Shown here: positions 12,623 through 15,198 of the stretch, in pieces
Position numbering within the stretch: position 1 is the first letter of the stretch
Layout of the letters: every line of letters starts with the position of its first letter
Assembly: GCF_004137255.1 (NCBI RefSeq)
Contig: NZ_SDWT01000001.1
Span: 558,001-622,000 of the forward strand
DNA: 64,000 nt
Reading direction: 5' to 3'
DNA from: Nocardioides oleivorans
GTDB taxonomy: Bacteria; Actinomycetota; Actinomycetes; Propionibacteriales; Nocardioidaceae
The notes under the pieces: generated by a model
Database searches by the model: none
The model's input: only the letters and a program-made list of their open reading frames with translations
What the model was told of the DNA's origin: nothing
Made by a program: the position numbers and the translations under genes

Positions 12623-12752
12623 GACACCGCCGGCGGCGTAGCGGCGGTAGTTCGGGTTGGCCAGGGAGCGGAAGGTGGGACTCGTGGTGACTCCTCAGGT
12701 GGTCAGCGGTCAGGTGGTGCGGTCAGGGATGACGTGGTGAGCAGGCCGGGCG

Positions 12753-13196
12753 TCAGTCGGTGACGGCCAGGCGGGCCAGGATCGGCGCGGCCTCGCGCAA
12801 CGTCTCGCGCTCGGCGTCGGTGAGGGCGTCGAGCCGGCGCGCGAGCCAGGCGTCGCGGCGCTCACGGTCGGCGAGGACCGCGGCACGACCCGCGTCGGTC
12901 AGGCTCACGACGACCTGGCGGCCGTCGGTCTCGTGCGGACGGCGTACGACGAAGCCGTCCTGCTCCAGGCAGTTGACCGTCCGGGTCATCGACGGCGGCT
13001 GCACGCGCTCGGCACGGGCGAGGTCACCGACGGTCTGGTCGCCGAGGCGGACGAGCAGCCCGAGGACGACCATCTGGCTGATGCTGAGGTCGTTGTCGGG
13101 GTGGCGCTCGCTCATCAGGCGGCGGCGCAGGCGCATCACACCACCCCGGAGCTCGGAGGCGAGCCCGGCGTCGGTGCGAAGGTCGGCGGTCGGCAT
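12753..13196 (-). CDS. MarR-family transcriptional regulator
   Basis: This ~147-residue winged-helix repressor has the recognition region LGDQTVGDLARAERVQPPSMTRTVNCL and the wing FVVRRPHETDGRQVVVSLTDAG. The start at 13196 (MPTADLRTD) is preferred over the upstream ATG at 13214 because a -10-like TACGCT lies exactly 12 bases before it, inside a palindrome that would be the operator. The gene is divergent from nothing and is followed by the MFS exporter, the standard MarR/efflux arrangement. The inducer is unknown. Confidence 0.88.
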   Translation of the reverse strand: MPTADLRTDAGLASELRGGVMRLRRRLMSERHPDNDLSISQMVVLGLLVRLGDQTVGDLARAERVQPPSMTRTVNCLEQDGFVVRRPHETDGRQVVVSLTDAGRAAVLADRERRDAWLARRLDALTDAERETLREAAPILARLAVTD

Positions 13197-13199
13197 GTC

Positions 13200-13227
13200 G
13201 TTAGCGTAACTCATTACCTGTGCTAAC
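13200..13227. promoter_or_regulatory. MarR autoregulatory operator/promoter
   Basis: Outer arms GTTAGC (13200-13205) and GCTAAC (13222-13227) are perfectly inverted, and inner GTAA/TTAC (13206-13209, 13214-13217) adds a second inverted pair. The minus-strand -10 TACGCT (13208-13203) lies inside the dyad, so bound repressor would cover the promoter of its own gene. Confidence 0.55.
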
Positions 13228-13257
13228 TATTCCGGCGACCGTCGGGTCGCTGGAGTG

Positions 13258-13345
13258 ATCCCCGGTCGGCCGGGGATTCCTGAACATGTCGGCGGTTGCA
13301 ACGCCTGACAAGTTCAGTGATCCCCGGTCATCCGGGGATCACTGA
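13258..13345. repeat. Composite palindromic element (two hairpins flanking a TTGCAA-centred dyad)
   Basis: The left hairpin is ATCCCCGG-TCGG-CCGGGGAT (13258-13277). The right hairpin has 14-base perfect arms, TCAGTGATCCCCGG at 13314-13327 and its complement at 13332-13345. Between them CTGAAC...GTTCAG and TGTCGGCG...CGCCTGACA pair imperfectly about the central TTGCAA (13296-13301). The whole 88 bp is therefore roughly symmetrical, like a REP/BIME unit. The right hairpin sits 11 bases past the permease stop and could also act as its terminator. Confidence 0.7.
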
Positions 13346-13355
13346 GGGGCGTGGG

Positions 13356-14828
13356 TCAGGACAGCCAGCCGCTGATCGGCGTGTAGGCGAAGTAGACGAC
13401 GAAGAGGGCGGCGACGACCCACATCAGGGGGTGCACCTCGCGAGCCTTGCCGACGACGGCCTTGATGAAGACGTAGGCGACGAAGCCGGCGCCGATGCCG
13501 ACGGAGATCGAGTAGGTGAAGGGCATCAGCACGACGGTGAGGAAGGCCGGGATCGCCACCTCGAGGTCGCGCCAGTCGATCTCGGTGACCTGCTGCATCA
13601 TCAGGAAGCCGACCAGCACGAGGGCCGGGACGGCCGCCTCGGAGGGGATCGCGGCGACGAGCGGCGTGAAGAAGGTCGCGAGCAGGAACAGCACGCCGGT
13701 CGCGACCGACGCGAGGCCGGTGCGGGCACCCTCGCCGACGCCGGAGGCGCTCTCGATGTAGGACGTGTTGGACGAGACGCCGGCCGCGCCGCCCGCGATG
13801 GCAGCGACGGAGTCGACGACCAGGATCTTCTGGGCGTGGGGCGGGATGCCCTCCTCGTCGTTGAGCCCGGCCTCGGCGCCGATGGCCGTCATCGTGCCCA
13901 TGGTGTCGAAGAAGTCGGCGAGCAGGAGCGAGAAGACCAGGAGCAGGGCGGCGAGCGTGCCGGTCCCGGCGCTGCCGAACGCACCGAAGAGGCTGAAGTC
14001 GCCGAGGGTGTCGAAGTGCGGCAGCCCCACGACGTCACCGCTGAGGGTCGGCACGCTGAGCGACCAGCCCTTCGGGTTCTCCGCCGACGAGGCGCCGATG
14101 TCGCCGACGGCCTCGACGACGACGGCGACCACGGTCGTGACCACGATCGAGATGAGGATCGCGCCGCGCACCTGGCGCACCCAGAGGGCGATCACGAGCG
14201 CGAGGCCGAGCACGAAGACCAGCACGGGCCAGCCGCCGAGGTGGCCGTCGCCGCCGAGCTGCACCGGGACGGTGGTCTGGAACGCGTCGGGGATGCGGGT
14301 CACCACTCGCGCGTCGACGAAGCCGATGAGCGCGATGAAGAGGCCGATGCCGACCGAGATGGCCACCTTGAGCTGCTGCGGCACCGCGTGGAAGACCGCC
14401 TTGCGGAACCCGGTGAGCACCAGGACGAGGATCAGGATGCCCTCGAGGACCACCAGGCCCATCGCCGCGCCCCAGGTCGACTGGCGCGCGATCGAGTTCG
14501 CCACGAAGGCGTTGAGGCCCAGGCCGGTCGCCAGGGCGAGCGGGAAGTTGGCGTAGCCGCCCATCAGGATGGTCAGCACGCCCGCCACCAGCGCCGTACC
14601 GGCCGCGATCGCCGGGATGCCGCTGCCGGGCTCCGCGCCGCCACCGAGGAAGGCACCCGTCGAGTCGGGCACGAAGCCGAGGATCAGCGGGTTCAGCACG
14701 ATGATGTAGGCCATCGTGAGGAAGGTGACCAGGCCACCGCGGAGCTCGCGACCGACGGTCGAGCCCCGCTCGCTGATCTTGAAGAATCCGTCGAGGCCGG
14801 CTGTCGGTGCAGTCTTGGTGTCACTCAC
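13356..14828 (-). CDS. NCS2-family purine permease (AzgA-like)
   Basis: This 490-residue membrane protein imports nucleobases, most likely hypoxanthine, guanine or adenine, by proton symport. It begins GLDGFFKISERGSTVGRELR, a hallmark of the AzgA branch, followed by FLTMAYIIVLNPLIL. About 12-14 hydrophobic segments follow, including GYANFPLALATGLGLNAFVA and the SYIESASGVGEGARTGLASV block before TM10. GTG at 14828 is used as start because everything upstream in frame is unlike the family. It is monocistronic and its 3' end faces the composite palindrome. Confidence 0.9.
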   Translation of the reverse strand: MSDTKTAPTAGLDGFFKISERGSTVGRELRGGLVTFLTMAYIIVLNPLILGFVPDSTGAFLGGGAEPGSGIPAIAAGTALVAGVLTILMGGYANFPLALATGLGLNAFVANSIARQSTWGAAMGLVVLEGILILVLVLTGFRKAVFHAVPQQLKVAISVGIGLFIALIGFVDARVVTRIPDAFQTTVPVQLGGDGHLGGWPVLVFVLGLALVIALWVRQVRGAILISIVVTTVVAVVVEAVGDIGASSAENPKGWSLSVPTLSGDVVGLPHFDTLGDFSLFGAFGSAGTGTLAALLLVFSLLLADFFDTMGTMTAIGAEAGLNDEEGIPPHAQKILVVDSVAAIAGGAAGVSSNTSYIESASGVGEGARTGLASVATGVLFLLATFFTPLVAAIPSEAAVPALVLVGFLMMQQVTEIDWRDLEVAIPAFLTVVLMPFTYSISVGIGAGFVAYVFIKAVVGKAREVHPLMWVVAALFVVYFAYTPISGWLS

Positions 14829-14885
14829 GGAACCGCAGTGTGGCAGAACCTTGCTACGGCCGTGTTTCGCCCCGTGACGCGCGTG

Positions 14886-14891
14886 TAGCGT
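14886..14891 (+). promoter_or_regulatory. -10 hexamer TAGCGT of the DUF2530 gene
   Basis: The hexamer starts 13 bases before the GTG at 14899, the spacing of a leaderless promoter, and overlaps the alternative GTG at 14890. It favours the shorter protein start. Confidence 0.45.
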
Positions 14892-14898
14892 GACGATC

Positions 14899-15198
14899 GT
14901 GGACCTGGGCGACGAGCAGCCGACGCAGCACGAGATCGGCAACCGCACCTACATCGTCGCGCAGGTCGAGCCGCTCGACGTCGACGGCGTGCGCACCACC
15001 GAGGTCGGCACGGCCCTGTGGCTGCTCGGCTTCCTCGGCCTGCTCCCCTTCTGGAGCACGCTCCAGGACAACGGACGCACCTGGTGGCTGTGGACCTGCC
15101 TGGCGGGCTTCGGCCTCGGCCTGTGCGGCCTGGAGTACTGCCGCCGTCGTCGCAAGGAGCGCGCGGCGCAGCGCGGTGCCGGCGGAGCGCACCGGTGA
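14899..15198 (+). CDS. DUF2530 small membrane protein
   Basis: This 99-residue actinobacterial protein has VEPLDVDGVRTTEVGTALW followed by two hydrophobic helices (about residues 39-55 and 66-83) and a basic tail, CRRRRKERAAQR. The block GRTWWLWTCLAGFGLG is the family signature. Start 14899 is chosen over GTG 14890 because a -10 hexamer overlaps the latter. It overlaps the next gene by 4 bp (GTGA), so they are co-translated. Function is unknown; it should be an inner-membrane protein. Confidence 0.82.
   Translation: MDLGDEQPTQHEIGNRTYIVAQVEPLDVDGVRTTEVGTALWLLGFLGLLPFWSTLQDNGRTWWLWTCLAGFGLGLCGLEYCRRRRKERAAQRGAGGAHR

Follow-up and report, generated by a model that had tools for sequence, protein, structure and literature searches.

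Dispersed palindromic repeats of Nocardioides and their association with a gene for an AbiEi-Vsr-like protein

The stretch of DNA analysed here (the window; 64,000 nucleotides, positions 558,001 to 622,000 of contig NZ_SDWT01000001.1 of Nocardioides oleivorans) carries, between a permease gene and a MarR-family gene, a 90-base near-palindrome (13254–13343) built of hairpin, core and hairpin modules. It belongs to a repeat family, designated A, copies of which flank a gene for a predicted nuclease-like protein in the same genome. The stop codon of the permease gene (13356–14828, minus strand; PF00860, Xan_ur_permease) precedes the element; the start at 14828 comes from our own gene caller and the longest frame starts at 14948. 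The MarR-family gene (12753–13214, minus strand) lies downstream on the permease strand. An inverted repeat, GTTAGC..GCTAAC, spans the marR start (13200–13227), was retained in most of 30 relatives and is probably a MarR operator.

The whole element was delimited by its fold, a genome search, an inverted-repeat listing and an alignment of copies, and the module borders were set in register with the other genome copies. The left hairpin (13255–13280) has the loop TCGG and a perfect part, ATCCCCGG/CCGGGGAT, at 13258–13277. The right hairpin (13317–13342; loop TCAT) points in the same direction and has perfect 14-bp arms at 13314–13345, as a first-pass annotation made from the sequence alone had stated. 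Between them lies the core (13281–13316, plus strand), an imperfect palindrome TGAACATGTCGGCG-GTTGCAAC-GCCTGACAAGTTCA with TTGCAA at its centre (13296–13301), which has an orientation because of the asymmetry between CGGC and GCCTG. The earlier description of a composite palindrome of two hairpins about TTGCAA was borne out: the arms 13254–13298 and 13299–13343 (45 nt each) were 80% complementary, with no gap and with their centre in TTGCAA. The single-strand DNA fold of 13240–13365 reached −40.4 kcal/mol (z = −6.56); 200 dinucleotide-shuffled versions averaged −21.8 (standard deviation 2.8), and not one of them folded as well. The element was the longest of five inverted repeats listed in the window, and the hairpin pattern (up to 3 mismatches) matched there just its own two hairpins, in agreement with the claim that the window holds no other copy.

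In the 4.48-Mb genome of N. oleivorans (G000; G numbers denote compared genomes and L numbers loci), family A was found at 14 places, 13 of them intergenic, which corresponds to the many extragenic, composite palindromic copies expected of repetitive extragenic palindromes (REP) and bacterial interspersed mosaic elements (BIME). The copies aligned in register over 96 columns, six with two hairpins and eight with one. Because both loops of the two-hairpin copies read in one direction, the repeat appears to be built as (hairpin-core)n-hairpin, repeating every 62 bp. G116 contained an array of the form core-hairpin-core, and at the L002 site a lone hairpin in G073 stood against hairpin-core-hairpin in G000; in G000 neither a lone hairpin nor a lone core was found at the search sensitivity used. 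G000 also carries a larger palindrome family, E, with an AGATCT core (C1:898608, 914903, 1097478 and others), and family E's own homologue of the nuclease-like gene at C1:897680–898573. Querying G000 with families B to F gave 41 match rows, both strands counted, and among the matches listed all were E.

R1, a covariance model representing the three hairpins, matched 144 of 215 same-genus genomes (E ≤ 1e-3); within the taxonomic family, 121 of 341 genomes gave a match at E ≤ 1e-6, two of these belonging to other genera. Scanning named genomes for the pattern gave at least 80 loci, all in Nocardioides or Pimelobacter apart from one chance hit. A family A-like element, 82.7% identical, was also seen at 280–374 of an unannotated 'Bacteriophage sp.' sequence from human feces (L045, MT839447.1).

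The structure of family A is maintained by paired change. In the 47 of 78 named copies analysed, 90.7% of cells paired, both sides had changed in 15 of 24 stem pairs, and 108 cells showed a both-side change against a mean of 38.3 after shuffling, a value not reached in any of 500 shuffles. Pairing dropped to 27–48% when the structure was slid. The test is uninformative for the central 26 nt, which the search pattern prescribed.

The first-pass annotation had read the element as a REP/BIME-type mobile palindrome and had named a single copy with unconserved structure as the outcome that would speak against this. With 14 genome places and covarying relatives that outcome did not occur, and the description as dispersed, modular, gene-trailing palindromes centred on TTGCA holds. 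The REP-type tyrosine transposase suggested to go with it was not detected: Y1_Tnp (PF01797) was found in none of 39 genomes, own included, and the same search was positive in 5 of 14 control genomes. The palindrome is therefore not a REP linked to a REP-associated tyrosine transposase (RAYT). No GTAG or CGTC column occurred at the hairpin ends in the alignment of the 14 own copies; such tags define REPs (PMC3733652).

The copies trail genes. Among the 14 own copies, six lay between convergent genes, seven in tandem contexts, none between divergent genes and one inside a gene, and all 13 intergenic ones overlapped the 3' end of a gene or lay within 32 bp of one. With genes called by our own codon-usage script, the named loci comprised 36 convergent, 26 tandem, four divergent and seven intragenic contexts (one of the last being the chance hit), with nine at edges, compared with 55 convergent, 127 tandem and 93 divergent gaps of at least 60 bp in the same loci (convergent contexts in excess at binomial p = 6e-10, divergent ones too few at p = 8e-8, the species being related and not independent). 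In tandem contexts with one detected hairpin, this lay on the side of the upstream gene in 16 cases and on the other side in four.

Such placement, and the fact that most of 30 orthologous marR/permease gaps contain a palindrome of some kind, could mean that the repeats are host terminators only, selected behind genes and occasionally copied by recombination, with the nuclease-like gene merely bordered by terminators. We regard this as highly unlikely, since termination needs no shared core centre and the T run is absent; the flanks of the nuclease-like gene and the in-frame copies described below also speak against it. No terminator-like site (a G+C-rich hairpin followed by a T run) was detected at 12700–15000 by a scan that is blind to T-less terminators, and actinobacteria have T-less terminators. 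As the window copy lies between the permease stop and marR, where most relatives have some palindrome, it likely also ends the permease transcript.

Two family A copies flank a gene in G000 (C2:159492–160439) for a 316-aa protein, whose predicted structure joins an AbiEi-type half to a homing-endonuclease fold like that of Vsr and I-Bth0305I. Residues 1–197 adopt an AbiEi fold in the prediction and match PF13338 and the PADLOC AbiEi model; the nuclease-like half corresponds in its predicted fold to homing endonucleases, and E249 and K255 in it are invariant. The neighbours of the G000 gene encode an Lrp/AsnC regulator and a protein matching no Pfam family, and no adjoining AbiEii-like partner was found at this locus, the only one scanned. 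Homologues were found in 11 of 12 genomes searched, in 192 of 215 same-genus genomes and, in a sample from across the order, in 95 of 117.

The same palindrome lies on both sides of this gene. Reading the flanks of 30 homologue loci by eye showed that A palindromes border the group 70–100% identical to the G000 gene, and a pattern check on the 11 full-length loci of this group found A hairpins on either side of the gene in each. Nine loci of 44–48% identity were bordered by E palindromes (GATATC-type hairpin, AGATCT-type core) and other homologue loci by D, F, B' and further palindromes; at L392 and L394 the palindrome was clear on one side only. In a measure blind to palindrome family, applied to 79 loci (three too short), the sequence shared by the upstream and downstream 300-bp flanks was scored against 292 control genes of similar length. 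Of the 76 full-length loci, 63 lay beyond the controls' 99th percentile and 71 beyond the 95th, the exceptions to the latter being L382, L392, L398, L413 and L425. With 350-bp flanks and 293 controls (a homologue among them), 41 of 58 loci exceeded the 99th percentile, and mismatched flank pairs scored lower still (mean 24.7, 400 pairs). Self-complementary flanks of homologues also occurred in other families of the order. The association of the repeats with the nuclease-like gene is strong, and identical sequence on both sides of it is not what terminators alone would give.

A further signal was common to homologue groups with different palindromes. TCCACAG, which we take to resemble a DnaA box (TTNTCCACA), lay on the forward strand, 57–122 nt ahead of the start of the matched gene, in 72 of the 76 loci (L373–L454), compared with 23 of 1146 control genes, and on the reverse strand in one of the 76. 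Paired copies spaced 27–28 nt apart occurred in 15 homologue loci, and the strict DnaA-box form in 31 of 76 loci against 4 of 1146 controls.

AbiEi antitoxins bind inverted repeats and repress themselves. The palindromes could accordingly be operators, with the AbiEi-like protein regulating itself at the copies beside its gene, the scattered copies serving as further binding sites and the nuclease-like half uninvolved in their spread; the predicted AbiEi fold of the N-terminal half and the intergenic position of 13 of 14 own copies agree with this. Such an explanation appears rather unlikely, as the copies sit at gene 3' ends with 0 of 13 between divergent genes, the downstream flank of the gene carries the palindrome too, two residues of the nuclease-like half are invariant, and families swap at fixed sites, as described next.

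Gene and repeat family differ together at a single locus. Among the 25 loci sharing the upstream neighbour gene of the G000 gene (home locus I), 10 other genomes had a gene 71–79% identical to it with A repeats on both sides. In G073 the gene was 47% identical and accompanied by D repeats, with both outer flanks alike; in G142 it was 40% identical with a C-type palindrome upstream, and in G215 38% identical with B' palindromes. The other 11 loci had genes 49–65% identical, and the one typed, L437, carried A-like hairpins. Beside the new element an A hairpin fragment was found in G073 and a whole A hairpin in G215, and repeats of the new family stood at old sites (D at the marR and pabB-like sites in G073, B' at the pabB-like site in G215). 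An A-group gene (at least 70% identity; partial in G075) was present in 12 genomes, every one of which had an R1 match at E ≤ 1e-12. Such a match was found in 36 of the 215 genomes in all and in 24 of the 203 without an A-group gene, in a tally counted by hand and uncorrected for relatedness.

Families also changed at other fixed sites, where they were typed by eye, as at the nuclease-gene sites. The intragenic own copy lies in a gene for a chorismate-binding enzyme (PF00425, pabB-like) and is read through in frame without a stop. This site was occupied by some family member in all eight genomes compared: A in G000 and G058, B-like in G076, G214, G071, G116 and G215, and D-like in G073. The linker could be extracted in 118 of 120 listed homologous proteins, and among 30 linkers listed at least five peptide types occurred at one place, P0056 being without such a peptide. 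A second in-frame copy was found in a thiamine-pyrophosphate enzyme gene of N. silvaticus, menD-like by our reading. In-frame copies within genes are a further point against a role as terminators only. At the marR/permease site, the 30 best orthologous regions carried A in 14 cases, B in seven, C in two, D in two and other or unclear palindromes in five. Two of the 14 A copies were single hairpins without the full core, and all 11 other core-bearing A copies were oriented opposite to the window core. In the infB-rbfA gap (L005 site), other long palindrome families (ACCGGGCACTTCCTCGCG.., CGAGTCGGCGCATCC..) occupied the position that A has in G000, in G073, G215, G116, G214, G058, G071 and G076.

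Copies were present in some relatives and absent in others at the L003, L008, L016 and L019 sites. At L008, family A was found in G000 and G215, three relatives were empty, and G073, G116 and G214 (L285, L286, L288) held another insert of about 100 bp (GACGAGCAGCGGCGA..GAACGAGCTCG). The presence and absence of copies and the in-frame copy in the second gene, that of N. silvaticus, could point to passengers, akin to miniature inverted-repeat transposable elements, of an ordinary transposase not found so far, the AbiEi-nuclease gene being cargo or a frequent landing place. We consider this decidedly unlikely: Y1_Tnp, the only transposase class searched for (DDE and others were not), was absent from the 39 genomes, the empty sites read by eye showed no clean target duplication, and different palindrome families bracket the gene at many loci, in several taxonomic families of the order, with a regularity beyond what chance landing would give.

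The likeness of copies was also compared within and between species. In 71 of 92 copies, from species with at least four, agreement of the core-adjacent arm was 0.694 within species (241 pairs) and 0.556 between species (2244 pairs), a difference reached in none of 1000 label shuffles. At the marR site, orthologues scored 0.730 on average over eight species, own paralogues 0.698 and the remaining comparisons 0.605; at the pabB site, own paralogues exceeded orthologues in four of five species. Therefore both descent and homogenisation act.

The explanation we favour, and hold to be somewhat probable, is that gene and repeat form a selfish pair, comparable to REP and RAYT except for its homing-type nuclease, in which the predicted nuclease likely cuts at or near its cognate palindromes and repair copies the repeat into or over the cut site. 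The AbiEi-Vsr-like protein would bind and cut palindromes or target sites, and repair from another copy, by homing-like gene conversion, would make the repeats mobile and homogenise them. By the same cutting and repair a new palindrome family could take over a site from an old one. Copies would persist where harmless or useful, as at gene 3' ends, where hairpins may end or protect transcripts. Several observations weigh against this explanation. The nuclease-domain match is weak by Foldseek's E-value (0.10) and concerns a predicted fold, the empty sites lack a clean target duplication, and homogenisation is partial, as copies at the marR site resemble their orthologues about as closely as they do paralogues in their own genome. 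Family A occurred in G138 with no detected homologue of the gene and in G215, G142 and G073 without an A-group gene, and family B occurred in G116 and G080 without its gene, so that relics or missed genes are needed; moreover, loci and species are related and the counts are not independent.

Homing replaces alleles at fixed sites, and the replacement of families seen here fits homing-type cutting and copying without demonstrating either. The gene resembles that of the Vsr-type homing endonuclease I-Bth0305I in the predicted fold of the catalytic domain. Unlike I-Bth0305I, it was not seen in an intron or intein, it is fused to an AbiEi-like half, and it is bracketed by palindromes that occur without the gene too. 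It shares the AbiEi fold of residues 1–197 and the PF13338 and PADLOC assignments with the antitoxin of type IV toxin-antitoxin systems, but differs from AbiE in the extra nuclease-like domain and, in G000, in having no adjoining AbiEii-like partner. ERIC and BOX repeats are palindromes of modular or imperfect build that lie between genes in transcribed DNA; family A is like them by description, sequences not having been compared, and differs in that a partner gene was found.

In REPtrons, a RAYT (TnpA-REP) gene is bordered by its own REP family, and the families are species-specific (PMC3733652). The system described here is similar in its dispersed, mosaic, mostly extragenic palindromes, its dedicated gene bordered by its own family and its species-specific families. 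It differs in that a Y1 transposase was not found and the flanked gene is AbiEi-Vsr-like, and in its unit of about 90 bp with a TTGCAA core, compared with a REP hairpin of 20–40 bp with a GTAG or CGTC tag. The same source mentions palindromic families, such as CGTC repeats, that 'apparently lack a dedicated transposase', and Rickettsia palindromic elements inside protein genes. The copy in the pabB-like linker resembles the latter; here the copies are mostly intergenic and a partner gene was found. No palindromic repeat tied to AbiEi or Vsr-like proteins was found among the titles and abstract openings listed, a search that left subscription papers and preprints uncovered, and the main text of PMC12306157 does not mention Nocardioides, AbiEi, RAYT or nuclease.

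Y1 transposases have explained REP-like repeats; here palindromes are linked, across several families of a single actinobacterial order, with a protein of another kind, and the origin of transposase-less palindromes therefore becomes directly testable. The findings also provide a case of one site, even an intragenic one, exchanging unlike palindromes with place and frame kept. As a wider and tentative proposal, with chances a little short of even, the AbiEi-Vsr nuclease with its own hairpin-core-hairpin family may constitute a new class of bacterial selfish system, which would overwrite sites genome-wide, replace rivals even in frame inside a coding gene, co-evolve with its repeats and supply swappable transcript ends. 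Many orphan actinobacterial 'AbiEi antitoxins' would then be repeat-keeping homing nucleases, and the proteins now named AbiEi family antitoxin are offered a testable function.
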